This document shows, one piece after another, positions 16,262 through 63,455 of a stretch of 64,000 bases of DNA. The notes beneath the pieces are model-generated. The model did no database searches, was not told where the DNA came from, and worked only from the letters and a program-made list of their open reading frames with translations. The first letter of the stretch is position 1; every line of letters begins with the position of its first letter. Source of the DNA: Sunxiuqinia elliptica (GTDB lineage Bacteria > Bacteroidota > Bacteroidia > Bacteroidales > Prolixibacteraceae); contig NZ_FONW01000001.1 in the NCBI RefSeq assembly GCF_900113005.1, positions 762,996 to 826,995 of the forward strand, in the 5' to 3' direction. The position numbers were made by a program, and so were the translations under genes.

Positions 16262-16316
16262 GATTGAGATATTTAATTAATATAATTTTCAGAAATGGAT
16301 TGTGTATTAGACGAAC

Positions 16317-16324
16317 CAAAAATA
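16317..16324 (-). promoter_or_regulatory. Putative -7 element of glnN
   Basis: Minus strand reads TATTTTTG, a match to the Bacteroidota -7 consensus TAnnTTTG, giving a leader of about 50 bases. The -33 element is weak. Confidence 0.45.
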
Positions 16325-16370
16325 CGGATTTTTTAGTTCGATATATTTCATTTTTCTATTTTTTATCCTC

Positions 16371-16470
16371 CGTTTTAGGGAGGGGAGTAGATTGAAGTTG
16401 CCTTTTTTGTTTGCTAGGGGCTGTATTTTTAGGGGAGTATGTGTTTATAGATCCTGTTTTAGGATTTGGA
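16371..16470 (-). promoter_or_regulatory. Repeated CCCCT..TAAAA motifs upstream of glnN
   Basis: On the minus strand: ACTCCCCTCCCTAAAACG (16371-16388), ATACTCCCCTAAAAATACAG (16421-16440), and a weaker AAATCCTAAAACAGG (16453-16467). Very similar strings recur upstream of the GSII gene at 23471-23592. I infer binding sites for a shared nitrogen regulator; no such motif is known to me. Confidence 0.4.
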
Positions 16471-16667
16471 TAGTCTATTTTAAATGTGTCTTAATTGTCA
16501 TTATAGTAAACGAAATGTTATTTGTGGGGCTCGTAACTGTTTGCTATTTTTATGCTGTTGTTGCTTACAATCTGTTTATTTTTAACAAATACCTTGCTTT
16601 AAAGGTGTCAATATTCTTATTTTGATGGAAAGTGAGTGGTAATTAAAAGGAAGAGGAGTGTCAGTTT

Positions 16668-18026: not shown

Positions 18027-18144
18027 AGGGGACTGCCGTTGAAAGATTTTGGCGATCTGCAAATAAAAGGATTCTGAGGATGATTAAAAATATTGATTTC
18101 TGCTTACTTTTGGGTAGTGACGATTGAATAAAGAAGAACAAATT

Positions 18145-19188
18145 ATGCAAACGCTTGATTATTTTCAGATCATCCGGCAAGCTTGGGAGGAGTTTGATGA
18201 CCGCCACGAAATCAAAGGTATTTTTGATGTTAGCGCACATGTGTCAACCAATCATGTGTATAAAATTTCATTTTTCGAACGCCAGCCAGTGTTCGCCAAA
18301 CTGTCCGATTATGGGAACTTTGAGCATTTCAAAGAGGACCATGTCATCATTAATAACCTGGCGAATAATTTGGAAGCTCCGTATGAGAATTTCCTGGCAA
18401 AATCGCTGGTGAAGCGCAATGACTTGTTTATTTATCGCTACTACGAGCAGAAGAACTGTGCCTGGGTAGTTTTTTATAACCCAATTAAGATTAAACATCG
18501 GATGCCGCGCAGGCTTGAGGGGAAACACATTCGTAAGTTGGGGCGTGAGCTGGCTCGCTTTCATAAAGCGTGTTCCAATGTTAGCAATCAACTGCCTCGC
18601 GCTTCAAAAACGGTTGTTACAGATATTCATCGGTTGATGAAAAACCTGAGGACGGAGAAGTTTTGTGCCACGCAGGAGCAAAAAGATTTGCTTATGCGTC
18701 AGTGTGATGAGTTCTTGCATCAGGCTGACAGGGTGAACTATTCAACAGAAATTGAGAGCATTCCGGTTTTTGTCGATTGGAATATTGGAAACTTTTCGGT
18801 GGGTGGCGATGGTAAGTTTTACTCCCGTTGGGACTATGACTGGTTTCGAGCCTCCTCGCGGGTGATGGATTTTTACTTTTTCAGCCGGGTTGTTTCCGAC
18901 GTGGGCGATCGAACTGTTTTTAGTTACCTGATTGATCCGCTGATGGAAGATCGTTTTATCATGTTTTTAAAGGAGTATCATCGGATTTTTCCGCTCAATG
19001 AGGCTGAAGTGAGGCTGATCAAAGAAGCGTACCGCTTTTTTATTCTGAATTATGTGGTTAAAGATGGAACCCACTTCTTTTTGCCTTCCTATGCCCGTAA
19101 GTTACAGAAGGAGGCTTACGATCTTTATATTCCGGCGATTGAGACCAATTATAATGTCGATAAAATATTGAAAGCATTAAAAATTTAG
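18145..19188 (+). CDS. Phosphotransferase of the aminoglycoside/choline kinase fold
   Basis: This 347-residue protein has kinase-fold marks: PVFAKLSDYGNFEHFKEDH (ATP lysine, about residue 50), the catalytic loop VFVDWNIGNF with Asp211 and Asn216, and the metal-binding WDYDWFRAS about 15 residues later. The usual HGD of the Brenner motif is FVD here, so the conserved histidine is absent. The substrate is unknown; choline, ethanolamine, sugar and homoserine kinases share this fold. It starts 118 bp after the GS-like gene and ends 4 bp before the HAD gene, so the two latter genes are surely co-transcribed. The TTG at 18124 is an alternative start but ATG 18145 is better. Confidence 0.75.
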   Translation: MQTLDYFQIIRQAWEEFDDRHEIKGIFDVSAHVSTNHVYKISFFERQPVFAKLSDYGNFEHFKEDHVIINNLANNLEAPYENFLAKSLVKRNDLFIYRYYEQKNCAWVVFYNPIKIKHRMPRRLEGKHIRKLGRELARFHKACSNVSNQLPRASKTVVTDIHRLMKNLRTEKFCATQEQKDLLMRQCDEFLHQADRVNYSTEIESIPVFVDWNIGNFSVGGDGKFYSRWDYDWFRASSRVMDFYFFSRVVSDVGDRTVFSYLIDPLMEDRFIMFLKEYHRIFPLNEAEVRLIKEAYRFFILNYVVKDGTHFFLPSYARKLQKEAYDLYIPAIETNYNVDKILKALKI

Positions 19189-48447: not shown

Positions 48448-48993
48448 TTAGCTCAACACAATGTATAGGATAGGAATTGCTAATCCTGCGAGGACAAGCC
48501 AAATTCCCCGTTTCATCAACCCGTTTTTTCCTTTGACCATGAACATGCCTGAGATGGCGAGGAAAATGAGCGAGAATGCAAATACATCGCCCATAATGGT
48601 CCACCCGGAAACTTTATTGTAGTGTAACTTATTGATGTGGTAAATAAACGGTCTTTTTTGATGAAGCTCATAGCTTAACTCGCCTGTTTTTGTACTATAG
48701 GCACCAATTCCACCGTTAAACATCACCTTGTAAAATTCGTTGCCACTAAAAAGAATTCGGTTAACTTGAGGGACTCCTTCCAAGGTAGCAAGGTGTTTTT
48801 TCAAGTTCTTTTCATTGAGATGTTTATCAATCATCGTTGTGGCTTCAATGGTATGATATGCTGGATCTTTGCCATCCATGTGGTTGAGAAGATAACCAGA
48901 TAGTCCATAGATAACAGAAATACCAACCAGGAAATAGCCCAGATCACGATGAATGATTCGGATCCATTTTCTGAGTTTAGTCGACGATGTCAT
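48448..48993 (-). CDS. PepSY-associated membrane protein
   Basis: This 181-residue protein begins with KLRKWIRIIHRDLGYFLVGISVIYGLSGYLLNH (first helix with a HRDLG motif), a soluble PepSY-like part (about 45-120) and two C-terminal helices (about 130-175) with NKLHYNKVSGWTIMGDVFAF. Such proteins, reminiscent of PiuB/FiuB reductase-type membrane proteins, have been linked to iron or heme handling. The two conserved histidines could ligate heme. It is the last gene of the operon and overlaps its neighbour by 17 bp. Confidence 0.78.
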   Translation of the reverse strand: MTSSTKLRKWIRIIHRDLGYFLVGISVIYGLSGYLLNHMDGKDPAYHTIEATTMIDKHLNEKNLKKHLATLEGVPQVNRILFSGNEFYKVMFNGGIGAYSTKTGELSYELHQKRPFIYHINKLHYNKVSGWTIMGDVFAFSLIFLAISGMFMVKGKNGLMKRGIWLVLAGLAIPILYIVLS

Positions 48994-49504
48994 AGTTTTC
49001 TCCGTTGATGTAATAGATTGAATAGTAGTTTTTTTCGTTATCCTCCATCCATTGGCGCATATTGTTGATGTTGTTCATCTCGGCAGCACAAGTTTCTGCA
49101 GAACCATCTTCCTGAGCCTCTTGGTTTTGAACTTTCTCCTCCCACTGATCAATATATTCAGCAGTTAACCTACGTTCCTTTAGAATTCCTTTAACCGCTA
49201 TGCTGTTGCCAACCAATTCACGGTTGAACCCTTGGATCTGCCCTCCGGCTTCAACCCTGATACTCAGATTAGCATCATCGCCTACGATGAAGCATCTTTT
49301 ACCGGAGTGTTTACAGGTATGGGTAACATGTCCCTGTACTACCACCGGCTTATCTACCAGCGTTTCGGCCTTGGCTAAAAGTTGGTCTACCACTACGACA
49401 TTGGTTTGAATGCTTTCCGTTTTAGGATTTGCACTCTCCTGTTTGATTTTCGACTGGCATGCAGCCATGAGAATGACTGCAGCTACTAATAATAGATTTT
49501 TCAT
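48977..49504 (-). CDS. OB-like lipoprotein with Cys-pair motif
   Basis: This 175-residue lipoprotein (signal ending LMAAC, Cys16) has a predicted beta-barrel resembling the OB/tRNA_anti-like fold (KPVVVQGHVTHTCKHSGKRCFIVGDDANLSIRVEAGG...). The HTCKHSGKRCF motif near residue 62 has two Cys and two His and could bind metal or heme. A further acidic Cys-containing tail (ETCAAEMNN) follows. The function is unknown. It lies between DUF4857 and the PepSY gene. Confidence 0.65.
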   Translation of the reverse strand: MKNLLLVAAVILMAACQSKIKQESANPKTESIQTNVVVVDQLLAKAETLVDKPVVVQGHVTHTCKHSGKRCFIVGDDANLSIRVEAGGQIQGFNRELVGNSIAVKGILKERRLTAEYIDQWEEKVQNQEAQEDGSAETCAAEMNNINNMRQWMEDNEKNYYSIYYINGENYDIVD

Positions 49505-49507
49505 TTT

Positions 49508-50764
49508 TTATTTTAGTTGAATGATATTTTTTGTTTCCTGTTGTTTCTCTTTGAAGCACCAAACGGCTATGGCACCAATTACACCTGTTAGCATAATGTA
49601 AGCGAGTTGAATGAGACTGAAGCGTTGCTTTTTACGCCACCATAAAAGACCAATCATGAGAATTACTGCAAGGCCATTGGTTAGTACAGCCTTAGCTGAC
49701 CAGCCAATAAATCGTGGGAAGATATAAGTTGAATGGTAAGATTTCAGCTCAATATAGCATGGGAAGATCCAAGGCTGAATTTTCTCCCATTGATTTGGCT
49801 CATGAAATTCGGTATGCTCATCAGCCCGGTTAAGGTCATTGTTATCAAGAATGTAGAGGTCTCGTTGGTGTGGGCGAGTAACCGTTACATTCCAGTAGAA
49901 CAAGTTCGCCATAATTAGCATGCGATCTTTTTTTAAATCGAAGGAGTCGATAGGAAGTTTTACAAGTTCGTAGTTAACATCGGAAAGGAAATAGACATTT
50001 TGTTGGCGGTCAAATACAAAACCATAGAGGCGATGGTTGGCTGTTTCAATGGTTTTCATCCAAACGATATCAATCTTCTCGCCGGCTTTGGTGTTTTTTA
50101 CAAATGGCTTGCCATTGACCATTTTTACTTGGAACAATTGGCCATCAGCATCAAGCATAAACCAGCCCTCGTCATAGGGCTTTCGAGCAGAAAGGTTGCC
50201 AGCTATCCATTGTACAGGAAACTGGAATCCGCGTTTTTCCATGGCGGTTTGAAAGAGTCGGCTTTTATCCTGCTTTAGTTTGTTGGTTTCAGCCTCGTAG
50301 AACCGGATTCTGTGGTCGATACTGAAAAGATCATCCGGAGACTCAAGGCTAACTCGTCCTGACATGGATTCGTACATCGGATAAAGATTGACTGAGCAGC
50401 TATTGTAATTTCGTGGAGTACACCGAAAGAAAAACTGGTTGAGTTGGATCTGTTTGGGATTGATTGCAACTCCCTTGATGGTATCAGGTAATCGTCCGTC
50501 TTGCATCAACTGGCGATAGTTGAACATCGGAACGATACTGTCGTATTCATCTTGGTTGTATTCGCGGCCTTCTAAATCAACCCTTTTCATTTCTTTGCCA
50601 TCAAAAACGGTTTGGATAAACTGGTTGTTGATACTTGAGTAGTAAGTGAATGGATAATCCAGGGCTTCATTGGTCATGAGTTTGATAGCCCAAGGGAGTA
50701 TCCAGTAAAGCAAAGCTGTTGTCAGGACAATCAGGATTGCTTGAATATTCTTTTTTGTAATCAT
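49508..50764 (-). CDS. DUF4857 family membrane protein
   Basis: This 418-residue protein has one N-terminal helix, a large extracytoplasmic beta-rich domain (about 30-345) with repeated YDEGWFMLDADGQLFQVKM-like blade segments, and about two C-terminal helices. I recognise it as a DUF4857 protein, a family seen beside ABC transporter genes in Bacteroidota. It probably forms a periplasmic subunit of the transporter encoded upstream. Confidence 0.7.
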   Translation of the reverse strand: MITKKNIQAILIVLTTALLYWILPWAIKLMTNEALDYPFTYYSSINNQFIQTVFDGKEMKRVDLEGREYNQDEYDSIVPMFNYRQLMQDGRLPDTIKGVAINPKQIQLNQFFFRCTPRNYNSCSVNLYPMYESMSGRVSLESPDDLFSIDHRIRFYEAETNKLKQDKSRLFQTAMEKRGFQFPVQWIAGNLSARKPYDEGWFMLDADGQLFQVKMVNGKPFVKNTKAGEKIDIVWMKTIETANHRLYGFVFDRQQNVYFLSDVNYELVKLPIDSFDLKKDRMLIMANLFYWNVTVTRPHQRDLYILDNNDLNRADEHTEFHEPNQWEKIQPWIFPCYIELKSYHSTYIFPRFIGWSAKAVLTNGLAVILMIGLLWWRKKQRFSLIQLAYIMLTGVIGAIAVWCFKEKQQETKNIIQLK

Positions 50765-50799
50765 TGTTTTATGCTTGTAATGTGTCGATGATAATTTGC

Positions 50800-51471
50800 T
50801 TATTCTGAAACGCCTTCCTTGAATCGGAATACTGAGTAGAACGGAAAAATGAGGGCTAGTAAACCTATTGCTAGTAATATTGGTGTTGCATAGGTATAGT
50901 CAAATGAGCCCGATGCTCGCAGAAAGACGGAGAGCAATGCGCCGGAGAATAAAGCATTGATGAGACGCCTTTTCCAGGAAGGTTCGATACATATCCACAC
51001 TGTTAATATGTAGGCCGTAAAGCCAGCAAGGTACCAAGGCAAACTGGCTGTTAGCCATGTTGTGATAATTGTTGGTGGCAAAGACAGACTGAGTAAGGAA
51101 AAAAGCAAACTTCCACTAAGTAAAAAGCTTATTGCCAGGCTTCCCAGGCCAAAAAGAATCATCTTAACGATGGTTAGCTTTTCGGGGTGTGGTAGGTGTA
51201 AGGTGAGTTTTAAACTTCTTTTACTCATTTCCGGGATAAACTGAAATAGTCCCAGGATCAGGCCAGCAACGAGTGGAAGGTACTGTAGTTGGCTAATTAG
51301 ATTAACGTCTTTTTCGGCAATTACACTCCACAGGTGAGCTTTCCCCGCAAAACGGAACTTGCTTTGCAAGCTGAGTACCAGGTAGGGAATCATTGCTAGA
51401 AAAATAGTGGCTATACTTACAAGTAGCCAGCGTAGCTTAATCCATTCTTTATAAAATATCGCTTTGGTCAT
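50800..51471 (-). CDS. ABC-2 type transporter permease
   Basis: This 223-residue protein has six membrane segments, starting with MTKAIFYKEWIKLRWLL. The small permease is typical of ABC-2 exporters. It lies 12 bp after the ATPase gene and 35 bp before the DUF4857 gene. Substrate unknown. Confidence 0.75.
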   Translation of the reverse strand: MTKAIFYKEWIKLRWLLVSIATIFLAMIPYLVLSLQSKFRFAGKAHLWSVIAEKDVNLISQLQYLPLVAGLILGLFQFIPEMSKRSLKLTLHLPHPEKLTIVKMILFGLGSLAISFLLSGSLLFSLLSLSLPPTIITTWLTASLPWYLAGFTAYILTVWICIEPSWKRRLINALFSGALLSVFLRASGSFDYTYATPILLAIGLLALIFPFYSVFRFKEGVSE

Positions 51472-51483
51472 GTCTGTGTTTGT

Positions 51484-52368
51484 TTAATATTTTCCAGTTA
51501 ATCCGATGAATGCATCTTCCAAACTCAATGTTTCTTCCCGCATATTCGTGGGTGAAAAACCTTGCATTTTAATTTCTTCCTCAACTTGTTGTTGTGGTAA
51601 AAAAGAGTAGAGTTCGGCCTGTCCGTTTATGACTTCAGGATGATATAGTTCACTCGTTGCATTGATGGTGCTTCCTTGAGGACAGTTGAAGCGGAAACGA
51701 CGGAATTGATCCATAATTGCTTGGGTTGAACTGTGTAGTAGAATTTTGCCAAAATCGAGGATAATGGCTTCATCAATGAGTTGCTCCATGTCTTGAATGA
51801 TGTGGGAGGTCAGGAAAACGGTTTTATCACTTGCCGCAACATATTCGCGCAGGTAGTCAACAAATAAGCGACGATAGCCTGGATCAAGTCCCATGGAAAA
51901 ATCATCGAGAATGAGCAACTCCGGATCTTGTGCGAGGATTAAGCCTAAGGCTACTTGAGACCGTTGCCCACAGGACATGGTCGATAGTTTCTGAGTCCGG
52001 GTTACCTTTAAGCGGTTCATCAGCTCCCAGTAGGGTTCGCTCTTCCAATTTGGGAAAAATCGGGAATAGAATTTCTCAATTTGGACAATGTTGAAATAGC
52101 TATGTTGTACATGCCCTTCCAGCAACAGGCCTATTCGCGATTTGGTGGCAGGCGAAAGTGTACGCATGTCTTCGCCAAGAAGGTAGCAGGATCCCGAATA
52201 AGGTTTTAGGTAGCCATTAAGAATGTTGATAATGGTCGTCTTTCCTGTTCCGTTTTTCCCAAGAAGCCCCAGGATTTTTCCTTTCGCTACGGTAAAGTTT
52301 AGGTTTTCGTAAATGAGCCGTTTCCCGTAATAGTGAGTGATATTTTCGCATTTAATAATTGGTTCCAT
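51484..52368 (-). CDS. ABC transporter ATP-binding protein
   Basis: This 294-residue ATPase has Walker A GLLGKNGTGKTT, signature LSTMSCGQRSQV, Walker B LLILDDFSMGLDPGYRRLF and the H-loop TSH. The Walker B catalytic Glu is Asp (DD for DE) and the signature is SCGQ; both are seen in this Bacteroidota group, so it may still be active. It opens the operon ATPase-permease-DUF4857-OB lipoprotein-PepSY. ATG 52368 (MEPIIKCENITH) is chosen over the longer frame to 52446. Confidence 0.9.
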   Translation of the reverse strand: MEPIIKCENITHYYGKRLIYENLNFTVAKGKILGLLGKNGTGKTTIINILNGYLKPYSGSCYLLGEDMRTLSPATKSRIGLLLEGHVQHSYFNIVQIEKFYSRFFPNWKSEPYWELMNRLKVTRTQKLSTMSCGQRSQVALGLILAQDPELLILDDFSMGLDPGYRRLFVDYLREYVAASDKTVFLTSHIIQDMEQLIDEAIILDFGKILLHSSTQAIMDQFRRFRFNCPQGSTINATSELYHPEVINGQAELYSFLPQQQVEEEIKMQGFSPTNMREETLSLEDAFIGLTGKY

Positions 52369-52554: not shown

Positions 52555-53919
52555 TTAATCTTTTAGAGCCTTTGTAAGTGTTCCGCTTTTTAACACGTAC
52601 TTTTTCGTCATACTATTGCTTATCAAAAAAGTAAAGATTCCAACTATCAAGTTTCCTATTCCCATAATAGCCTCAATGGGTTTGTTGATAATTGAAAAGC
52701 CAATTATCCATATTGACATAAGGATGAATAGTATTTGAAAGAAAGGAAAAAGTGGACTTTTATAGTCCTTTGGGATTGTTTTGTGTTTTTTTGCTTGAGA
52801 ATTGAAAGATACCTTTTTGATCCTTCTTAAACGAATTACTCCAAAGACTGTTAGTAGCGCTGAGATATTCAATAAGATTCCACAATAAATCATGATCTGT
52901 TCAAATGTTCCAGAGAATAGTAATACCGAACTTAAAATAGCTTGAAACCACAAGGCTTTCACTGGAATTCCTTTTTTAGGGTTAGTGAATGATTTCCACA
53001 GTAAATGATCGTTTGCTATGCTAGAAGTGACACGTGGACCAGTCCAAATCATTGCACTAATTCCAGAGATAAGTAGTAACGAGATAGCTCCGCTAAAGAA
53101 GATGGAAGATCGTGGACCGAGCATCTGTTGGATTGCTATGGTACCTACGTTTAAACTTCCAGAGAGCTGATCATAAGAAGCATGTTTTAAAAAAATGATT
53201 TGCAAAAAGCTATATAGTACTGTTACCAAAATTGTTCCCGCAATTAGCGCAATTGGTAATGACTTTTCTGGATTTTTAAATTCGCCAGTAATGTAGGCCG
53301 CTGCATTCCAGCCTGAATAGGAGTAACTAACATAGATTAGAGCAACAGCAAAAGCAGTGGACTTTAGTTCTCCGATAAAAGAAGAGTTGAAGGATAGCGC
53401 ATTATCCGTTTCGGGAGATAATACCAAGCCAAGTACAATAATTGAGCTTATTAAGAGGATTTTTAATAATGTTGTTATATTTTGAAATTTTGCACTAGTG
53501 TTTAGGCTTAAGCTATGAATAGCTGTTAGTCCGACAATAAGCAAGACACCAAATAATCGGGCGTATGGAATATGAAAGGGGAGATATTCGATACATGCAA
53601 TTGCAGATAATGCAATAGGGGCAGCAAAGCCAACAGTTAGAGAGATCCAGCCTGACAAATAGCCCAGGAGAGGATTAAATAACTCGGAGAGGAAGGTGTA
53701 TTCTCCTCCGGAGCGTTTGATGGCTGTTCCAACCTCTGCGTAGCTGAAAGCCCCTGAAAGAGCCATTAAACCTCCTGCTAGCCAAAGAGTAAGGATCGTT
53801 CCTGGATTCTTTAAGTCTACTAACTGAAAGCCAAGACTTGTAAAAGCTCCGGTACCAACCATGCTGGCAACAACCAACGATATCCCAGTGGTAGCACTTA
53901 TTTTCGTTTTTTTAGACAT
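52555..53919 (-). CDS. APC family amino acid permease
   Basis: This 454-residue inner-membrane transporter has about 12 helices and the APC signature VVASMVGTGAFTSLGF near the N terminus and FSYAEVGTAIKRSGGEY. It is the last gene of a six-gene operon and starts 2 bp after the preceding lipoprotein. As the operon also encodes a putative surface protease and a TonB receptor, amino-acid uptake fits a peptide-use role. By eye it is AT-rich. Confidence 0.88.
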   Translation of the reverse strand: MSKKTKISATTGISLVVASMVGTGAFTSLGFQLVDLKNPGTILTLWLAGGLMALSGAFSYAEVGTAIKRSGGEYTFLSELFNPLLGYLSGWISLTVGFAAPIALSAIACIEYLPFHIPYARLFGVLLIVGLTAIHSLSLNTSAKFQNITTLLKILLISSIIVLGLVLSPETDNALSFNSSFIGELKSTAFAVALIYVSYSYSGWNAAAYITGEFKNPEKSLPIALIAGTILVTVLYSFLQIIFLKHASYDQLSGSLNVGTIAIQQMLGPRSSIFFSGAISLLLISGISAMIWTGPRVTSSIANDHLLWKSFTNPKKGIPVKALWFQAILSSVLLFSGTFEQIMIYCGILLNISALLTVFGVIRLRRIKKVSFNSQAKKHKTIPKDYKSPLFPFFQILFILMSIWIIGFSIINKPIEAIMGIGNLIVGIFTFLISNSMTKKYVLKSGTLTKALKD

Positions 53920-53921
53920 GC

Positions 53922-54788
53922 TTATTGGAAAATTAACTTTGATTGATAGTAGTCATTTAGGAGTTCGCTAGCTTTTAATGTGCTGTCTGGATTTAAATAG
54001 TTTTGACGAATATCTCGATAATGGTTTAATAATGTTATGCTACGTTCATACAGACTAGAATCAACTTTGGTTGGGATATGTTTTTTGGGATAGGCATAAA
54101 CAAATGCACCTTCTTTTGCTGAAAAAGATGGAATTTGAAAATAGTTTCTAGGGAGGAGAACATCATTTTCCTTCATCTCAACCATTGCTTCAACAAAAAA
54201 GTCAACAGCATAATCAGGGTATCCAAACAGGTATCCATAAGCCCTTAGTCGTTCATACCTATCACTGTTCTCAACGGTCGAAAGTACTATTGAGGCATTA
54301 GTTCCAGGAACTAGACCAAATTGTCCAAAGAACGATGCTTTTGTTTCCAAAAGGCTATCCAACAAGCTTTCTTTAAAAACAACTAATTGTAAATTCCTAC
54401 GATTTTTTCTGTTTTTCTGAAAAGGATATAAAACAAATTCTAGATCTGGATAGTCCACAGTACCTATAAGATGTTGTAAGTTTGTTATTTCATCCAGATG
54501 TATTTGATTTTTATCTAAATCAAGTACATCTGCTTTTGTTTTCTTTATACTGTCGGTGTTGGCTATTGGAAACGAATAAGACCTTATTGTACTCATTGGT
54601 TTTATTTTCCCCAACAGGGTGTATAGTGCTTCATAATCAAGCCCTCGGCTTAGCAGAGCGTCTAGTTGTTCTTGTTGGCTTGAGTTTATATTATGTGTTA
54701 AAAAGTAATTCCTTGCCAGGTTTTTTTGAGTCCTACAAGATAGTATCAAGAAGGCCCCTACTAACAATAGCATTATTTTAGTTTTCAT
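53922..54788 (-). CDS. Lipoprotein of unknown family in protease operon
   Basis: This 288-residue protein has a lipoprotein signal ending LILSC (Cys18). The mature part is helical then beta-rich; I recognise no family. It overlaps the protease-like gene by 4 bp and precedes the APC permease by 2 bp, so tight co-expression is certain. It could be a partner, substrate-binding protein or inhibitor of the protease. Confidence 0.7.
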   Translation of the reverse strand: MKTKIMLLLVGAFLILSCRTQKNLARNYFLTHNINSSQQEQLDALLSRGLDYEALYTLLGKIKPMSTIRSYSFPIANTDSIKKTKADVLDLDKNQIHLDEITNLQHLIGTVDYPDLEFVLYPFQKNRKNRRNLQLVVFKESLLDSLLETKASFFGQFGLVPGTNASIVLSTVENSDRYERLRAYGYLFGYPDYAVDFFVEAMVEMKENDVLLPRNYFQIPSFSAKEGAFVYAYPKKHIPTKVDSSLYERSITLLNHYRDIRQNYLNPDSTLKASELLNDYYQSKLIFQ

Positions 54789-56965
54789 GGTTTTATTTTT
54801 ATTCGGTTTAGTGTTCTGGTTAATTCACTTTTTATATTTTGCTTTTCTTCTTTCTGAAGTGACGATTCGCAGAAATCAATGATTTGGTTACGCTTACTGG
54901 AGTATTTAAACCATCCAAGCATTTCAGTTGCTGCTAGTTTTAATTTTTTGTTTTTAACAGTATCGGTATAACTAATGAGTTTATCCAGATGACTATGAAC
55001 AGTAATGTTTCGGAAGGCTCTCAAGTTGAAATATGCATTTTTTACATCTTGAGGAGTAGCTAGAATCTCATCTACATATTTAGCCGCTTTTTCTGTATTG
55101 TAATCAATAGTTTTCTGTAAAGATTTCCTTTTGTCTTCTTTGTTTAATAGATATTCTTTGTTGTCTATTTGTTTCTCTAGTTCATTTGTTAATGATTGTT
55201 GACTATATGCAGAGATTGCATTACGTAAATTATAGTTTACACGTTTACTAAGATTATTTCGAAGCAATGCTTCAATGAGAAAAGGAATATGAGATTCATC
55301 CCCGGAGCGCAGTAGGTAAAGCGCAGATAATCTTTGAATCAACTCATAGGAGTCGTTGACACCTAGGTTAATGGCTGTGACAAAGTTTGCATCACGACAA
55401 AAACTTAATAGTTTAAAAGCTTCGGCACGAACAGTAAAAAATGGAGACGTTTCAAATTTTTCAAGGAGTAAGCTGGAGCTATTACTACCTTCGATATCGA
55501 ATAGCATTCTTAATGCCAAGGCTTGGATATCGGCATATTCACTATTGAGCTGGTTTTTCCAAAATGTTAAATCGTTTTGATATTCAATTAATATATGATT
55601 GATATCTAGTGTGTTATTGGGGGATTGGAAAGCAAAGGTTGGATCGCCAAGCAAATGCGTTTCGAGCGTGCAAGTCATTTTATTCCAGTGCCCAACTCGT
55701 AATCCTAAGCCAATCAAACCCACCATTTCATCTGGCCATTTATCTTGAAAAACATTAACAGAATTAGCTTGTGCTACAATGGTGTTGCCTGTGCTAAAAA
55801 TATACTCACCAGCAAGGTATGTATCTTGATGAAATGACCCGGTAAAGCAAGCATCAAGCATAATGAATTTGGCATTGGGGGTGTAACCTTTCATATCTTC
55901 AACATAAATATCGAGGTTGGCATTAAATATTGAGTCCTTTCTTATTTGATTTGTGTCAAAAGTGCCTTCAAACCAATCTTTTGGAACTCCATAGTATTTT
56001 TGGTACCGTTCAATAATGAGTTTTTGTTTCTCTTTGGAAGTTCCGGCTTTACTTAATTTTGAGCGCAGATAATATTTAATATTCTCGATACTTCCTTTTA
56101 CCGCTGATGTTTCGGGCATACCATTTAAGTATTGAGCTTTTGTTCCTCCGTGATGATGAAGGAGGGCAATGTCCAGATTGTTGCGCTTGAGTTCTGACAT
56201 TAGCCTAAATTTGATATGGGTGTCGAAACTAAAATTGATGTATTCCAGCCAATTCTTTTGTCCTTCTAAATGGGAGAATTGTTGTGAAATGGCGATTTTT
56301 TCATCCATGTATGCTCTTGGCGCTTCTGAATTGTAGCCATGCCCAGTAAAAAATAACACTTGTTGGGCTAGCCTTGGAGCTTGCTTATAAGCTACAACTT
56401 TAGATAAGTACGCTTTTAGTTTATCATATTTATCCTTTCCTTCTTTGGGTTTTATTCGGGCAGTATATATATCTACGGTAAGTTCTTGTGGCGATTCTGG
56501 GTTTAAACTGTAGTAATGATATAATGAATGTGTGGTATCCTGCTTTAAATAGGAGAACTGTAAATCAAAGTCGTCATAAAAACGATCAGAAGGAATGGAA
56601 GATCGACTCCATTTATAGCGATTTTGATCCATTTTAAAGGCCGTTGAAAGGTGTTGAGCATCGCGTAGCATAGGGACTGGAATTGCCCCTATGAATACGG
56701 CTCCCTCTATGGGAAATTTGTCTTTGGTGTAAAGGTTTAGTAGTCTATTTTTTATTGAGTCGGGGTGTTGCCATTGATCAATAATTAAGTAGGTTTTTAA
56801 TCCTTCTTGCTCGATGGCATTTGCATATGCCTCAACTTCTTTTTGGGCCTTACGGTAGCTTGTGGAATCAATTACAATAGCGAAGCCTTTATTTTGTTCC
56901 TTACCGCATGATATGAAAAGTAAACTTAAGAATAGGATTAGGAGAAAGGATATATGTTTCATCAT
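54785..56965 (-). CDS. Lipoprotein with gingipain/caspase-like (clan CD, C25-type) domain and HEAT-like region
   Basis: This 726-residue protein has a lipoprotein signal ending LLFISC (Cys20). Residues 25-450 form a C25-like domain: substrate motif FFTGHGYNSEA (about 206), catalytic-type His in DIALLHHHGGTKAQYL (His270-272), catalytic-type Cys in AKFIMLDACFTGSFHQ (Cys373), and the closing LLGDPTFAF typical of C25 domains. Residues about 470-720 are helical repeats of HEAT type. No T9SS C-terminal sorting domain is seen; the lipid anchor replaces it. The operon pairs it with a TonB receptor and a permease, so a surface protease feeding peptide uptake is likely, though autoregulatory cleavage is also possible. 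Confidence 0.78.
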   Translation of the reverse strand: MMKHISFLLILFLSLLFISCGKEQNKGFAIVIDSTSYRKAQKEVEAYANAIEQEGLKTYLIIDQWQHPDSIKNRLLNLYTKDKFPIEGAVFIGAIPVPMLRDAQHLSTAFKMDQNRYKWSRSSIPSDRFYDDFDLQFSYLKQDTTHSLYHYYSLNPESPQELTVDIYTARIKPKEGKDKYDKLKAYLSKVVAYKQAPRLAQQVLFFTGHGYNSEAPRAYMDEKIAISQQFSHLEGQKNWLEYINFSFDTHIKFRLMSELKRNNLDIALLHHHGGTKAQYLNGMPETSAVKGSIENIKYYLRSKLSKAGTSKEKQKLIIERYQKYYGVPKDWFEGTFDTNQIRKDSIFNANLDIYVEDMKGYTPNAKFIMLDACFTGSFHQDTYLAGEYIFSTGNTIVAQANSVNVFQDKWPDEMVGLIGLGLRVGHWNKMTCTLETHLLGDPTFAFQSPNNTLDINHILIEYQNDLTFWKNQLNSEYADIQALALRMLFDIEGSNSSSLLLEKFETSPFFTVRAEAFKLLSFCRDANFVTAINLGVNDSYELIQRLSALYLLRSGDESHIPFLIEALLRNNLSKRVNYNLRNAISAYSQQSLTNELEKQIDNKEYLLNKEDKRKSLQKTIDYNTEKAAKYVDEILATPQDVKNAYFNLRAFRNITVHSHLDKLISYTDTVKNKKLKLAATEMLGWFKYSSKRNQIIDFCESSLQKEEKQNIKSELTRTLNRIKIKP

Positions 56966-57051
56966 ATTTTTTTGATTATAAATGCTGGGAAAAGAGATTG
57001 CTGTTACCTTATAATATGTTTTTAGCAGATCTTATAGGGTGTTGTTCTACT

Positions 57052-58620
57052 TTAAAAAAGAACTCCCAATTTGAATGTGATATTTAAATATTTTTGATTG
57101 GTCTTTGTTGGTTTGGTATATACTGCACCAATGTCAACATAAACTTGATCTATAGACTTGATATCTCCATGGCTATAGCCAATCTTAAGGTTGGCTTCTG
57201 ATTGAAAAACATCGGTAGTGTTGTAGTTGAAATCAGCTAAGAAAAGATCAATTTGTTGGTATTTTGTGATTTCAGGATCATTGTGTAAGACTAGTTTTTT
57301 ATTAATGTTTTTGAAATATTGTCCTTTTATTGTTGGACAAAAATGAAACTTCCCTGGGTAAAAGTTTTTATGAAACATGGCAGATGTTCCTAGGTTAAAA
57401 TAGGACATGGAAAATATCTCAGGGATGTAATAATATTTTTCAGCATGGTGACTTGCTAGAGTTGTTATTTTGATCATCCAGTTTTGGAAGCCGTTTTTAT
57501 GTTTTTTTAAAAAAGTGTAGTCTAGTTTTCCATCTAGTTTTTTTTGAGTGTATTTCTTATTCTTAGCAATGGTAATGTACTCTGTGAGGTCACCGCTTTC
57601 TTTTTTATTCTGTGTATATTCAATACCTTTTCCCGATAGAAAATCAGCTTTGAAATCTAGCAAGTGGGTCACTTTATTGGGAGTCCATTTAAAGTGTTGA
57701 CTGAAATTAGCATTTGTTGACTCCCAGTCTCCTGCATAAAGTTTTTTATTTTTTACACGTTCATCGTCGGTCTGCTGTATTCCTTTATTGAATTGAATCT
57801 CAGTGAGTGATTTGAGGTCGTTAAATTGGTTTTCTATTTGAAGAGCAGCGTACAGGTTGTTTTGAGATTGGTATCGACTGGTTTGCTGGTCAATTGCACG
57901 GGTGTAGAAACCAAACCCTTTAAAATAGAAATAACTGTAGTTAAAGTTTGTTTTTTCAACTTTATAATCTATTACTTCTTTGCTTGTATGTATTCCTATA
58001 TTAAAACCTATTTTGAAGGAGCTGGTTTGATAGATTAGGGAGGGAGAGATATCAATTCCATTCACTGTGTTTTCAGGACGAGGATCTAGGGCTTTAGCTG
58101 CTATTGCTGCATAGTAGCTGATATTTCCCCCGATTATCCAGCTGTCTGAAAATTGGAAAGCTGCTTTTCCTTGTAAGTTATAATCTTCGTAAGTATAGCT
58201 TGCACCAGTTAAGGTGTCGGCTATAATATAGGGACTGCCTTTGTAGGGATCATAGGTAGCGTTCCATCTGATACTATCTTTATTGGTCTTTTGGTAAGAA
58301 AAATTTCCATAAAGAACAAGTCTGTCATTTATCGAGTTATAACCTTCTGCTTTTATTTTGGTAAGGTTTCCATTATCTGTATCGTGAACTTTATGAAATG
58401 CTCCATTCATTAGTTCATAGCTACCTTCAAAGGAAGTGTAACGGGGATTGGTATTGAAGAATATCCCAGCTGCATTAGCAGTCGTTAGCCAACGGTTAGT
58501 GTTATGAAGTTGTAATTTGCTATTAAAGGTGTTCCATCTGGTACTATCGGAAGCAGAGCTGAGAGTCGTATGAAGCATTGTAATAAGCAGAAATAATATT
58601 TTAACGAAAAACCTGAACAT
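57052..58620 (-). CDS. DUF6850 outer-membrane beta-barrel protein
   Basis: This 522-residue protein has a signal peptide (cleavage near SSASDS) and then amphipathic beta-strands to the end, with C-terminal KYLNITFKLGVLF, matching an outer-membrane barrel. The family (DUF6850) is Bacteroidota-specific and commonly found after a TonB receptor and DUF4876 protein, as here. Function is unknown. Confidence 0.72.
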   Translation of the reverse strand: MFRFFVKILFLLITMLHTTLSSASDSTRWNTFNSKLQLHNTNRWLTTANAAGIFFNTNPRYTSFEGSYELMNGAFHKVHDTDNGNLTKIKAEGYNSINDRLVLYGNFSYQKTNKDSIRWNATYDPYKGSPYIIADTLTGASYTYEDYNLQGKAAFQFSDSWIIGGNISYYAAIAAKALDPRPENTVNGIDISPSLIYQTSSFKIGFNIGIHTSKEVIDYKVEKTNFNYSYFYFKGFGFYTRAIDQQTSRYQSQNNLYAALQIENQFNDLKSLTEIQFNKGIQQTDDERVKNKKLYAGDWESTNANFSQHFKWTPNKVTHLLDFKADFLSGKGIEYTQNKKESGDLTEYITIAKNKKYTQKKLDGKLDYTFLKKHKNGFQNWMIKITTLASHHAEKYYYIPEIFSMSYFNLGTSAMFHKNFYPGKFHFCPTIKGQYFKNINKKLVLHNDPEITKYQQIDLFLADFNYNTTDVFQSEANLKIGYSHGDIKSIDQVYVDIGAVYTKPTKTNQKYLNITFKLGVLF

Positions 58621-58680
58621 GGTGATGGAATTGTAGCTGCCGAGATTTTATAAGATCCCGACAGCTAATATGGATAATGG

Positions 58681-59898
58681 TTATTTTTCAACAGTTGATG
58701 GGTGCTGGCCGGGAGTAGGAGTAAGATCATGTAAAAAGTCTTCTGATGAGTTGTTGGTGTCTTGGTAGATAACACGACCATCAACAATCATTTTAGCTTT
58801 TCGCCTTACTGATAAACCACAATAGGAACCACCTTCAAGATAGGTATAGCCGGCATCTAAGTCATCAGGTAGTCGCTTGTTACGTTTATCTTCTTCTACC
58901 CGAACTATTTCAACAGCATCAATCACCATGTTTTTGTCAATCATAAAGTATTCAGTAGCTGAAGTGCTTCCTGGCAGTGTCATATAATTGTTGGCGTTGG
59001 CGGCGTAAGTTTTCCAATCGATATCTTTGGGAAAGCGGAAGATAACAACAGCAGACCCGAATACAGAGTGAAGCCAGTCATGCATTCTAGTAGATGTTGT
59101 ATACATCATGGTCATATTAGGCACCCCGGGGGCGTCTATATCTTTTCCTGAAATTTCAACGTAGCTTTCCCAGTTAGCGTTCCCCAGGTTAACTGGAGAG
59201 TTGGGGTTGCCATTTTCGTCTGTTTGATGGTCGATTCCATCTTGAGCAATAACTATACTTTTGCCAGGATAGATTGGGTAGTCTGTACCACTTCCTTTAA
59301 TGGTCCAAATATGATAGGTAAGTGGAAGACGGTCCATGAAATTTCCTTCATTATTTAACCATACATTTGCTTTGGTGCTTGATTGCTGTAAAACTCCTAT
59401 GCATAGTCCATCAGCATAAAGTGTATCGTTAGAGTTGTTATAAATTTCGTGAAACTGATCTGAGAAATAGCTCTTGTTCTCTGGGGTCTTAGTGCCAGAA
59501 AAATAGACTTCTTTGATTATTAGGCCCCCAGTATTTGTAGCCATAACCAATGTGATTTCTTTCGCTAAATCTGAAGATAATTGAAGGTTCGATAATTTCC
59601 CATTAAAAGTATACTGTTGGTTTGCTTGGTCGGTAACGCTAAAGCTGGTAGCAATAGAATAAACTCCTTGGGGGAGGCTTACGGTGGCTACACCTGAACT
59701 ATTTGGCACAGCTTTGGTAACCCTGGAGCCCGAATCAAAACCTATTTCTATTTCTCTGGGAAAATCAAAATCAACTCCTTCAGGATAGATTAGCTGGATT
59801 GATAGATCGAACGTTGGGGTAATGTCATCATCCTCAGAACAGCTCCAGAAAGCAATGCCTAACGATAATATTATAGAAAAGAAAACTATTTTTTTCAT
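58681..59898 (-). CDS. DUF4876 lipoprotein
   Basis: This 405-residue lipoprotein (signal ending AFWSC, Cys20) has an N-terminal Ig-like domain (about 25-125) and a DUF4876 region (GGLIIKEVYFSGTKTPENKSYFSDQFHEIYNNSNDTLYADGLCIG) that resembles lamin-tail-type domains. It probably sits on the outer membrane with the TonB receptor encoded 32 bp upstream, taking the place of SusD. Function is unknown. Confidence 0.8.
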   Translation of the reverse strand: MKKIVFFSIILSLGIAFWSCSEDDDITPTFDLSIQLIYPEGVDFDFPREIEIGFDSGSRVTKAVPNSSGVATVSLPQGVYSIATSFSVTDQANQQYTFNGKLSNLQLSSDLAKEITLVMATNTGGLIIKEVYFSGTKTPENKSYFSDQFHEIYNNSNDTLYADGLCIGVLQQSSTKANVWLNNEGNFMDRLPLTYHIWTIKGSGTDYPIYPGKSIVIAQDGIDHQTDENGNPNSPVNLGNANWESYVEISGKDIDAPGVPNMTMMYTTSTRMHDWLHSVFGSAVVIFRFPKDIDWKTYAANANNYMTLPGSTSATEYFMIDKNMVIDAVEIVRVEEDKRNKRLPDDLDAGYTYLEGGSYCGLSVRRKAKMIVDGRVIYQDTNNSSEDFLHDLTPTPGQHPSTVEK

Positions 59899-59930
59899 TT
59901 TGAAGAATATTTATGTGGTTAATAATTTAT

Positions 59931-62804
59931 CTATATTGTTAATTTTACTTCTGCTCCAAAATAGGTGGGTTGATTTGCTCGATAGTATGTGTCATTGATG
60001 CGAGATGTTCGTAGTGGTCTGTGATTTAGTATGTTGTTTGCAAAGAAGGATATTTTGGCATGCTTCCCAATTTCTTTGGTTAGTTTCATGTTTAATTGCC
60101 AGGTTGGAGGATTCTTGTCCATGTTAAAAAAATCAGCTCTTCTTTGTTTGATCATAGTTTTATAGGGTAGCTCTCTTTCTACGCTCGCATCCCAAGAGTG
60201 ATAATTCATGTCGAAGTCGTAATATCCTATTGGGTCTATATAGAGCATATCTTCTCCATTTGTTACTCCATATTGTTTATTCCCCATATCATCAAGAGAG
60301 TAATACAAGGGAGTGTTATTGTGATTATTCCAGAAACGTGTTGATTTAGAATGCCAAATAAACATTCCTGTTAAAGAGCAAATCATTTTAATTTTGGGGA
60401 TATGTGTGTTTATTCTCAGGTTAGAATTCAGGCGTTGTTTGGTATAACCATCATTTCCGGCATAAACGGGGAGATATGGAAACCGATCACCAAGGTAGCT
60501 AGTATTTATCCGTTCCAAAGATGTGGTGTTGTTATTTGTTCTGGTAATATGAAAATAGGCACCGTCTAGAATAACAGATGATCTTATTGGTTTTATGCGT
60601 CCAAAATCAATAATATATTCCAGCCCCTTTTTTTTGGTCTCATAGGTGTTTTGTGGCAGTTTATAACTGCTAAACTCTTGTTGCCAAGTATAATCTAGTA
60701 TTTTTCTGCTGCCGTCAGGGGTAGTGTAATAAATATCACCATCCACAAATTCTGGCATAGAATCGGTATTATCAAGTTGAGCCCATTTTCGGAAATTCAT
60801 TGTTGTGTATTGGTTGTTCCAGCTGAATCCATTGGTTAAGTGCTCTTTGAATGCTGTGAGTTTTAAATTAACACCTTGAATGTTGATATCAATTCCAGCT
60901 TCTAGCTTTCTGTTACTGGCTGGTTGTAGTTCGGGATTAATCATATCGTCAATTGCCAGCGTCGTAAATACATACAAGTCGGGATAATAGTTAAAGCTAA
61001 TTTCATCTTTGTAAGATTTATCTGGATATAAATAAATCATAGATGGAGATTTGGAGGAGACCCCGTATCCTGCTCGAAGCTCAAGGTTTCTTAAGACACC
61101 TTTGCGCCTTTTCTTGATTAAGATGTAATTAGTATTTATTCGAGGTTCAAACGTCTGATATCCTTTTGTTGAAAAAAGTCCTTTGGGGAGGAAATTGTTG
61201 TAGCGGAATCCGGCTTGCGTTTGTAGGGTTGTTGTCCCAAGTGTAATTTGTAGTTTTTCTTCCACAAAAACAGATAATTCATCGCTGTTGGGAATCTCAT
61301 TAAATGCACGTGGACGTGTAGATGTTCCTCCAAATGGAGGAGTTGCTAGATCGTATAGTTTCCCCAAACCATTATTTCCAGAAACTCGATAGTCTATACC
61401 TGTATAAAAGCTACTTATAAGATTTCCCCAAACATTGGATGTCGTAGTTTTAAGGTTTGCAAAATAACTAAATGGTCGCCCGTCTATTGTTAGTTCACTA
61501 AAGTAAGATGTTGGCAGAAGCACACCAATAGATTCTCCTGACTCCCATGATTTCGGAGTTGGAGTCGAAGCTCCTGATGTAATTTTATATTCGTAATAAT
61601 CTTGTTTTTCAAAGCTGCCCGATATGTTATAAGTGATACTATTTAGCCAAGAGAGATTTGTTGCCCATTTCCCAAACAACTTAAAGTTAATGTTTTGTTC
61701 CTTGTTTTTATATAACTCAGTGGTTTGTGCATCTTCATCTTCTTTTTCGTTGTCAATAGTGCTATAAATACTCAATTTAGCATTGATGGTTAAGGGAGTA
61801 CTGTTTTTTGCGATGATGTTTGAGTAGCCTAGCTGACCAGTAATGCGTTTGAAACTTTTTGTAGGAGTACGTAAGTCATTGACAGCATTTAGGTAATCCA
61901 GATCAATATTGACAGCGCCCCAGTTTTCTTTGGGAATCAGGAGTCCTTTGGAGATAGCTAATTGTTTAATATTAATGTCAGATTTCAGCTTTACATTTAA
62001 TGGTGCTTCTCCAGCTTTTGTTTTTACTACAAGTGCTCCCGATGTTAAATCTCCATATTGAGCAGAAGGAATTCCTCTGATTACCTCAACTGATTCAATC
62101 TGATCAACAGGGATTTGTCTCAAATCAACTCCCTGGCCTGCGCTGGAGTATGATTGTGAGATTCCTCCACTTGACGTGTTCAGAGTTTGCATGTTAGCAT
62201 CATTGCTTAGTGGAGTTCCATCAATTATAATGGAAGTTCCAAGAGAACTATTGGCATCCGGATTTTGTCCGGGCGTGTTAATATCGCGTATTGTAATTTG
62301 ATTTTTTGCAGATAGATCTGGGTTGACTGTTATTTGTCCTGGCACTAATTGCATTAAATCACCGATTGTATTTGGTTGTATGTGGTCGAGGGCTGACCTT
62401 TCAATTTTAGAAGATGAACTTAAGGCACTATTCTCCTTGGCAACGATAACGACTTCCTCTAGTCCCAAACTAAGCTCTTTGAGCTTTAATTTTAAGTTTG
62501 TGATATCTCTGTTGATAGTGATCGGTAGTTCATATTTTTCATATCCTAAGCGGCTGGTCTGTAGGGTGAATGTTCCTTCCGGAACATCCCTGAACCTAAA
62601 ATTACCATATTTATCAGAAACAGTCCAAGAAAGGGTCTCCTTTAGCTGGATAACAACCATTTCAATAGGTTCTCCACTTTCCAAGTGCATTACTGTTCCT
62701 GATAATTCATACTTGTTTTGTGCATGCAGTTCCGTTTTGCTCAAACCAAACCAAGCAAGAACCATCATGAATAAGAATGTCTTTTTAAGAAATTCTAGTT
62801 TCAT
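59931..62804 (-). CDS. TonB-dependent receptor (non-SusC type)
   Basis: This 957-residue receptor has a signal peptide ending LHAQN, a carboxypeptidase-regulatory-like domain (about 35-115), a plug (about 130-265, with QIPVDQIESVEVIRGIPSAQYGDLTSGALVV) and a beta-barrel ending FGAEVKLTI. The plug resembles siderophore/heme-type receptors more than SusC. It opens the operon and has its own promoter with a perfect palindrome. ATG 62804 is preferred to the TTG at 62807. Confidence 0.92.
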   Translation of the reverse strand: MKLEFLKKTFLFMMVLAWFGLSKTELHAQNKYELSGTVMHLESGEPIEMVVIQLKETLSWTVSDKYGNFRFRDVPEGTFTLQTSRLGYEKYELPITINRDITNLKLKLKELSLGLEEVVIVAKENSALSSSSKIERSALDHIQPNTIGDLMQLVPGQITVNPDLSAKNQITIRDINTPGQNPDANSSLGTSIIIDGTPLSNDANMQTLNTSSGGISQSYSSAGQGVDLRQIPVDQIESVEVIRGIPSAQYGDLTSGALVVKTKAGEAPLNVKLKSDINIKQLAISKGLLIPKENWGAVNIDLDYLNAVNDLRTPTKSFKRITGQLGYSNIIAKNSTPLTINAKLSIYSTIDNEKEDEDAQTTELYKNKEQNINFKLFGKWATNLSWLNSITYNISGSFEKQDYYEYKITSGASTPTPKSWESGESIGVLLPTSYFSELTIDGRPFSYFANLKTTTSNVWGNLISSFYTGIDYRVSGNNGLGKLYDLATPPFGGTSTRPRAFNEIPNSDELSVFVEEKLQITLGTTTLQTQAGFRYNNFLPKGLFSTKGYQTFEPRINTNYILIKKRRKGVLRNLELRAGYGVSSKSPSMIYLYPDKSYKDEISFNYYPDLYVFTTLAIDDMINPELQPASNRKLEAGIDINIQGVNLKLTAFKEHLTNGFSWNNQYTTMNFRKWAQLDNTDSMPEFVDGDIYYTTPDGSRKILDYTWQQEFSSYKLPQNTYETKKKGLEYIIDFGRIKPIRSSVILDGAYFHITRTNNNTTSLERINTSYLGDRFPYLPVYAGNDGYTKQRLNSNLRINTHIPKIKMICSLTGMFIWHSKSTRFWNNHNNTPLYYSLDDMGNKQYGVTNGEDMLYIDPIGYYDFDMNYHSWDASVERELPYKTMIKQRRADFFNMDKNPPTWQLNMKLTKEIGKHAKISFFANNILNHRPLRTSRINDTYYRANQPTYFGAEVKLTI

Positions 62805-62839
62805 CAATTTCGTTGTTTGTCATATTTCGTGATAAGCAG

Positions 62840-62847
62840 CAAAGGTA
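62840..62847 (-). promoter_or_regulatory. Putative -7 element of the TonB/protease operon
   Basis: Minus strand reads TACCTTTG, matching TAnnTTTG, 35 bases before the start codon. A TTTT tract lies 18 bases upstream, inside the palindrome at 62858. Confidence 0.5.
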
Positions 62848-62857
62848 GGGGGCGTAA

Positions 62858-62897
62858 ATCATAATAAAATCCCTAAAACTGGGGATTTTATTATGAT
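62858..62897. promoter_or_regulatory. Perfect 16-bp inverted repeat, candidate operator
   Basis: ATCATAATAAAATCCC and its exact complement GGGATTTTATTATGAT flank an 8-base loop. It overlaps the expected -33 region of the TonB/protease operon promoter. No T-run follows on either strand, so a binding site is more likely than a terminator. Confidence 0.6.
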
Positions 62898-62981: not shown

Positions 62982-63027
62982 AAAAAGAAGGCAGGTTTCA
63001 GGATGGGGGAGTCCGGAAGCCTGCCTT
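62982..63027 (-). terminator. Terminator of the fucosidase remnant
   Basis: AAGGCAGG and CCTGCCTT form a perfect 8-bp stem; on the minus strand CTTTTTC follows. Confidence 0.65.
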
Positions 63028-63067
63028 TTGGATATTTGAATCCCCAAATCGAGGGATTGCTTGCTAG

Positions 63068-63455
63068 TTAATAAATTTCGAGATTGGAAATTACGGGACA
63101 AGCTTTAGAGTCCTGAATTGTAATTTTGAGTTTATTGGTAACCACGCTTTCAACGGGCACAATTCGTTTATAACCAATGGTTGTTCCTTTGCCAATCGTT
63201 TGCCATTGGTCATCGATCCTGGCTTCTATGTTGAACGATTTAATACGTTGCCCTAAGGTGATGTACTCCTGAAGAAGAACATAGTTGATGGTTTGTTCCT
63301 CGGGAAATTCTATTTCAACTTCACCAGAGACTTGATCGTCATTGGTTGTCCAATAGGTTTCAGCCTGATTGTCAATCAAGTTTTGAGCGCCATATGCTGG
63401 CTCATTTCCTCGTGTTGCGGAGCTGCTTACTTTTGATTTTGGAGCCAGGTTGGAT
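63068..63455 (-). pseudogene. 3' remnant of an alpha-L-fucosidase-type gene (F5/8 type C/discoidin domain)
   Basis: The minus strand encodes about 125 residues beginning NLAPKSKVSSSATRGNE, then YGAQNLIDNQAETYWTTND and a beta-sandwich ending ACPVISNLEIY. It is the C-terminal discoidin-like domain seen on GH29 alpha-L-fucosidases. The frame meets a stop just before NLAPKS and the catalytic domain is missing, so this is the decayed tail of a larger gene. The first ATG (63379) is inside the domain. The original terminator is retained. Confidence 0.72.

Follow-up and report, generated by a model that had tools for sequence, protein, structure and literature searches.

A 64,000-nucleotide stretch of Sunxiuqinia elliptica DNA (NCBI RefSeq assembly GCF_900113005.1, contig NZ_FONW01000001.1, positions 762,996 to 826,995; this whole stretch is called the window) carries a minus-strand operon in which a TonB-dependent receptor, a DUF4876 lipoprotein and a DUF6850 protein stand beside a predicted gingipain-fold peptidase with HEAT repeats, and the locus is probably an iron-starvation-induced system that takes iron or haem from proteins. 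The receptor-DUF4876-DUF6850 module is conserved, and the gingipain-fold peptidase joins it in many Bacteroidota. The general kind of system, TonB-linked uptake of iron or haem, is known; what is unusual is the peptidase, and what is new is an inferred operator upstream of the receptor. A preliminary description of the window had given the operon another purpose, with proteins cleaved, peptides taken up through the receptor and amino acids imported. Iron or haem is preferred over amino acids because homologous loci are induced by iron depletion in the published portions drawn on here (PMC10434189), because ABC transporter (ATP-binding cassette), DUF4857 and PepSY genes are partners of the module, because HmuY-type genes occur in related operons and because a palindrome is common to iron genes, all of which point away from the purpose first proposed.

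Each article cited here and below is represented by excerpts. Under iron depletion, the Bacteroides thetaiotaomicron locus BT1933-39 is up 3.5-7.4-fold, BT3625-33 is up 38-128-fold (tabulated values) and Porphyromonas gingivalis PG1019-22 is up 20.8-214.5-fold (PMC10434189). The iron-responsive locus PG1019-21/BT1938-39 combines a TonB receptor with DUF4876 (PMC10434189), and the same adjoining pair, which marks this type of locus, is found in the window, which adds a 288-residue lipoprotein and a permease. BT3625-33 holds DUF4857, ABC ATPase, PepSY, DUF4876 and TonB receptor genes (PMC10434189) and so resembles the window in gene content, and a DUF4876 gene is among the haemin- or stress-regulated genes of P. 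gingivalis (PMC10470040, PMC10101095). The listing of BT1933-39 also includes a HEAT-repeat protein, not called a peptidase and with no operator given in the excerpted text (PMC10434189). In a Bacteroides-group locus (L176), DUF4876, DUF6850 and three peptidases accompany a receptor spread over two open reading frames (ORFs), and an oppositely oriented ORF, by eye an IS256-type transposase, comes next; because this content matches BT1933-39 as listed in the excerpts, the HEAT-repeat protein there would be the peptidase described here. If so, the peptidase, whose best annotation so far is that of a HEAT-repeat protein, would supply the enzymatic component hitherto missing from an iron-induced locus that is widespread in Bacteroidota of the gut and mouth.

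A scan of genomes with two catalytic-domain patterns found 431 peptidase relatives, of which the best 80 loci were kept and their ORFs called with a custom script; fractions of 80 below refer to this set. DUF4876 or DUF6850 lay near the peptidase in 65 of the 80, bearing out the preliminary description on conserved gene neighbours, and all four core genes (receptor, DUF4876, DUF6850, peptidase) were present in 57; of the 15 loci with neither DUF4876 nor DUF6850, several lie on short contigs or have different neighbours. Homologues of the peptidase were found in 10 of 395 phylum genomes (seven long, own genome included, and three short and HEAT-only), in 9 of 140 family genomes (one short) and in 15 of 119 Bacteroides-group genomes. 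Among 61 genomes of relatives, 16 had DUF4876, and the 19 regions fetched from them held ABC genes and DUF4857 beside the receptor module in 15 cases, a small lipoprotein with PepSY in 5 and the peptidase in one (L023). The ABC ATPase directly follows the peptidase in four same-family relatives (L054, L069, L070, L071), and the window therefore has a known gene order with the 288-residue lipoprotein and the permease placed between the peptidase and the ABC genes. These two genes are rare (5/80 and 3/80 loci, respectively), which argues against amino-acid import as the core function, and they recur together with the peptidase in L081, L129 and L141. In L141, the peptidase, lipoprotein and permease are immediately followed by genes for pyruvate formate-lyase, its activase and a formate channel (14607-18653).

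The peptidase (54785..56965, minus strand; 726 residues) has its HHHGG motif at residue 270, DACFTG at 371 (with Cys373) and LLGDP at 438, the three motifs reported in the preliminary description. An AlphaFold model of the protein shows a gingipain-like domain and HEAT repeats (predicted local distance difference test score, pLDDT, 93.9; predicted template-modelling score 0.92). The best Foldseek matches to this model were two RgpB structures (1cvr, E-value 7.8e-7, template-modelling score by target 0.49; 4ief_D, E-value 1.5e-6, score 0.51), with designed HEAT-type repeat proteins ranking next, so that the fold implied by the earlier assignment to the C25 type was upheld. H270, H272, G273 and C373 are invariant in 17 relatives gathered without using the motif (alignment A3), and H272, G273 and C373 are also invariant in alignment A4. 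Among relative ORFs, HxHG occurs in 110 of 116 and DxC in 106 of 116, the latter count being partly by construction as the DxC stretch was one of the two patterns used to fetch them. A His-Gly pair with a later Cys is the motif of clan CD peptidases, and the window motifs are the predicted catalytic His-Gly and Cys, as in gingipains. The catalytic-domain fold and the His-Gly and Cys motifs are thus common with the C25 gingipains RgpB and Kgp, whereas the sequence match of the window family is weak: Pfam Peptidase_C25 did not match the window protein and matched relatives weakly (3/17; 10/62 with E-values of 0.01 or lower, the lowest 3e-4; 1/10, below the curated cut-off). HEAT repeats replace the C-terminal parts of gingipains (HEAT_2 in the window protein scored 21.9 bits, below its curated cut-off of 27.7). 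No Por_Secre_tail match, the sorting domain of the type IX secretion system (T9SS), was found in the window protein, in agreement with the preliminary description, or in the families listed for A3 and A4, and most of the peptidase family, unlike gingipains, has a plain signal peptide. No earlier description of the peptidase, or of the palindrome described below, was found in the searches made of an open-licence library.

The location of the peptidase bears on where digestion would occur. The window copy has a lipobox followed by CGKEQNKG, which is poor in acidic residues. A simple pattern assigns a lipobox to 16 of 121 peptidase relatives, a plain signal peptide to 101 and neither to 4. A Cys of any kind within residues 10-40, which sets the upper bound for lipoboxes, is present in 56 of the 121, and at least 65 cannot be lipoproteins as they have no Cys there. 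The preliminary description had called lipid anchoring of such a protein unusual; the lipobox is real in the window copy, but anchoring is a minority trait of the family. Because few relatives have a lipobox, periplasmic digestion is preferred, which would mean that the gingipain fold also occurs in an enzyme that is largely periplasmic.

The other core proteins would act in binding and import at the outer membrane. The receptor (59931..62804, minus strand) has a Pfam TonB plug and a carboxypeptidase-regulatory-like N-terminal domain and had no match among PDB sequences. No SusD family was listed in Pfam for the six operon proteins, as the preliminary description held, and no SusC model in NCBIfam matched the receptor, so that the window locus has neither the SusD partner nor the SusC-type receptor of a SusCD-type system. 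In the DUF4876 lipoprotein (58681..59898, minus strand; Pfam E 1.6e-50) the lipobox is followed by CSEDDD. Acidic residues behind the lipobox Cys mark surface export in such lipoproteins, which suggests that the window DUF4876 protein is surface-exported. In contrast to the peptidase family, 68 of 85 DUF4876 relatives have the lipobox pattern and 84 of 85 any Cys, and in 44 of the 85 the Cys is followed by acidic residues. DUF4876, which may stand in for SusD as the preliminary description suggested, has a solved, uncharacterised structure of its own (4q1z). The DUF6850 protein (57052..58620, minus strand; Pfam E 8.3e-88) is a predicted outer-membrane barrel by family annotation, and no paper on DUF6850 was found in the open-licence literature.

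Upstream of the receptor, 53 nt before its start, lies a perfect inverted repeat of two 16-bp arms and an 8-bp spacer (62858..62897, minus strand), which scores 16 as an inverted repeat, whereas 100 shuffled versions of this stretch score at most 10. Its core is the operator-like palindrome AATCCCCAGTTTTAGGGATT (62868..62887, minus strand), an exact match to AATMCCYANNNNTRGGKATT and the sole one in this genome. The repeat lies just upstream of TACCTTTG (62840..62847, minus strand), which matches TAnnTTTG, the consensus of the -7 element of Bacteroidota promoters. The repeat folds well as RNA (z -4.7) and may be an attenuator or terminator; an operator is preferred because the repeat stands upstream of TACCTTTG and because the core recurs beside other iron genes. 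Comparison of upstream regions gave the 20-bp consensus AATMCCYA-N4-TRGGKATT (AATACCTA-N4-TAGGTATT). A score of at least 14 of 16 was reached by 9 of 57 receptor upstream regions and by none of 285 shuffles. Among 477 control regions 7 reached it, every one at a receptor operon: four share an intergenic region with a positive receptor, and the other three (L036_12, L120_6, L129_2) head or adjoin such operons. Exact palindromes outnumbered matches to a reversed-pattern control by 56 to 4 in the 140 family genomes and by 98 to 1 in the 119 Bacteroides-group genomes (sums of listed rows), and one-mismatch sites outnumbered the control by 17 to 2 in five genomes. In the own genome, four of six one-mismatch sites lie before TonB receptors (two), before pyruvate formate-lyase (one) or beside unidentified genes (one). 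Elsewhere, the genes after the sites include flavodoxin, hemerythrin followed by a LuxR-type regulator, pyruvate formate-lyase, enolase, cation efflux, PepSY and TonB receptor genes, with one site preceding an ABC ATPase 68% identical to that of the window; other adjoining genes are of unknown family (family searches covered 50 of the 63 proteins next to sites). Flavodoxin, pfl, hemerythrin-CdhR and TonB loci appear in the published iron lists, as excerpted (PMC10434189). Within the window's family, exact palindromes also stand 50-62 nt before outer-membrane-type genes, which encode DUF6662 proteins in L211, L218, L221 and L222 and members of a family about 380 residues long in L212, L215 and L217.

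According to the excerpted text of PMC10434189, little is known of how iron governs gene regulation in Bacteroidetes at the molecular level, and the mode by which CdhR regulates hmuYR is unclear; the palindrome would supply a concrete sequence for regulator binding. A hemerythrin-LuxR (CdhR-like) regulator is proposed to act on it. Palindrome sites co-occur with hemerythrin-LuxR gene pairs in L207, L249 and L263, and the own genome has a hemerythrin gene followed by a LuxR-type regulator (L278; PF01814, PF00196), the CdhR-type arrangement, the two sharing 34% and 31% identity with their counterparts in G298. Two other candidates were set aside. The PAS-LuxR protein of family relatives was considered as the regulator, the own genome giving only short helix-turn-helix matches to it and the hemerythrin-LuxR pair being found instead, and the best match to an Escherichia coli Fur box in the window promoter had 7 mismatches, with 49 upstream regions not clearly different from shuffles. 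A supposed second operator at 63039-63058 was dropped because it belongs to one copy of a 447-bp repeat that forms the end of a fucosidase gene.

Under the iron or haem reading, the surface DUF4876 protein and the TonB receptor would capture a protein that contains iron or haem, or a large fragment of one, which TonB would drive inward through the receptor; the peptidase, most likely periplasmic, would then cut the imported protein with its HEAT part holding the chain, the iron or haem would pass on via the PepSY and ABC proteins, and in the window lineage the permease would recover amino acids. A close parallel is Fus, the ferredoxin uptake system of Pectobacterium, with the FusA receptor, the TonB-like FusB, the M16 protease FusC and the ABC protein FusD (PMC7593965, excerpted). 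Both loci bring together a TonB receptor, a protease and an ABC transporter, and an M16 peptidase is the neighbour of the gingipain-like one in L065, L090 and L143 and of DUF6850 in L040. The window peptidase is gingipain-like and not M16, however, and neither an M16 protease (FusC) nor a TonB homologue (FusB) was found among the window-locus proteins scanned, M16 being present in some relatives only. A complete scheme, in which a Fus-like import-and-digest system of Bacteroidota uses the TonB receptor with DUF4876/DUF6850 to import an iron or haem protein, a periplasmic gingipain-fold HEAT peptidase to digest it, and a phylum-wide operator AATACCTA-N4-TAGGTATT read by a hemerythrin-LuxR (CdhR-like) regulator, is possible and is put forward tentatively.

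Digestion might instead take place outside the cell, in the manner of gingipains and HmuY, with an exposed peptidase breaking down haemoproteins and the receptor importing the freed haem. P. gingivalis provides a precedent for gingipain-HmuY haem acquisition (PMC7312356, excerpted), and as in its Hmu system (HmuY/HmuR) with gingipains, an HmuY-type protein, a TonB receptor and a C25-like protease come together in five relatives (L094, L119, L135 and L136 by Pfam, L111 by phmmer only; two other small neighbour genes tested were not HmuY). Together with the lipobox of the window copy this gives surface digestion some standing, but it is rather unlikely, as the residues after that lipobox lack the acidic character of the DUF4876 CSEDDD, at least 65 of the 121 relatives have no Cys for an anchor and no T9SS sorting domain was matched; an HmuY haem-binding lipoprotein was also not found among the window operon proteins scanned. 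The feeding role of the preliminary description, in which the peptidase supplies the receptor with peptides and the permease imports amino acids, draws on the tight spacing of the peptidase and APC permease in one unit and on the recurrence of lipoprotein and permease with the peptidase in three other loci. It is unlikely given the scarcity of both genes among the 80 loci, the iron induction of homologous loci in the excerpts of PMC10434189, the ABC, DUF4857 and PepSY partners and the common palindrome. More improbable still is a peptidase that serves maturation or defence of the receptor system, for instance by cleaving a partner lipoprotein or a bacteriocin that hijacks the receptor: the peptidase is optional, occurring in 1 of 19 DUF4876 regions, and at least two copies occur in 25 of the 80 loci, yet the same slot holds M16 (L065, L090, L143, L040) or S8 (L039) peptidases in other loci, which a degradative role fits better.

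Several observations weigh against iron or haem import as set out above. The peptidase is inessential to the module, with 18 of the 19 DUF4876 regions of relatives (13 to 15 on a lower count) lacking it, and the lipobox of the window copy means that this protein could face outward. A strong palindrome is missing from 48 of the 57 receptor operons, and weak sites mean little, as the own genome at two mismatches has 30 sites against 17 for the control. The remaining two of its six one-mismatch sites are copies within the 447-bp repeat at the fucosidase gene end, and the site nearest to its hemerythrin-LuxR pair, with two mismatches, is located behind the pair and not in front of it. Many sites in the family precede genes not tied to iron here, namely PAS-LuxR (GerE, 13/50), OprB (3/50) and DUF6662 (3/50).

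All six genes named in the preliminary description (52555-62804) lie on the minus strand by ORF calling, and recomputed intergenic gaps from receptor to permease were the 32, 60, 86, -4 and 2 bp given there. The block had been drawn to 62897; it does contain the six genes, but the receptor ATG is at 62804 and the remainder includes the inverted repeat. Likewise, the six belong to one unit, but the same-strand run resumes 186 bp beyond 52555. Downstream of the peptidase are the 288-residue lipoprotein (53922..54788), with no Pfam family and no PDB match by profile, and the APC-family amino-acid permease (52555..53919; Pfam), both rare add-ons; a structure prediction of the lipoprotein (pLDDT 47.5) was not used. 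The run past the permease (48448-52368, minus strand) comprises an ABC transporter ATPase, a usual partner among relatives (51484..52368), an ABC transporter membrane protein assigned by position and homology in relatives with no Pfam match (50800..51471), a DUF4857 protein (49508..50764), a small lipoprotein that is OB-fold-like (oligonucleotide/oligosaccharide-binding) by eye only (48977..49504) and a PepSY-TM protein (48448..48993).

Elsewhere, operons with two or three peptidase genes in tandem were seen in L092, L095, L131, L152, L176 and others. Large S8 subtilases with a T9SS tail lie near DUF6850 in L038 (623-5326) and L039 (11612-16234), the latter in the slot held by the peptidase in other loci. 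A family of about 510 residues directly follows the peptidase in L094, L106, L113, L119, L135, L136 and L144; its members in L113 and L144 are marginally similar to the papain family (E 0.04-0.05), and the one in L094 matches HmuY weakly. Genes for YCF48-like beta-propellers stand beside the peptidase or DUF6850 in distant lineages (L064, L065, L066, L067).

The six operon genes form an AT-rich block, as had been judged by eye: G+C per kb is 32.5-39.9% at 53-63 kb compared to 43.9% over window positions 1-48400, and G+C at third codon positions is 0.27-0.36 in the six genes compared to 0.43-0.46 in the five adjoining ABC-side genes, a composition consistent with the transfer suggested in the preliminary description. 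A 447-bp direct repeat at 63005-63451 of the window is 95.5% identical to a second copy in the region beyond it (L273, 2668-3114). The copy in the window represents the terminal part of an alpha-L-fucosidase gene that is intact at L273 2731-4188, and the discoidin-like ORF at 63068-63379 is therefore a gene fragment. The repeat pair and the AT-rich stretch support acquisition or rearrangement at this site, as judged from composition and identity. The AT-rich stretch extends past the window into a 540-residue gene with a MACPF_D3 match (L273, 874-2496; 34% G+C), which is flanked by the two copies of the repeat.

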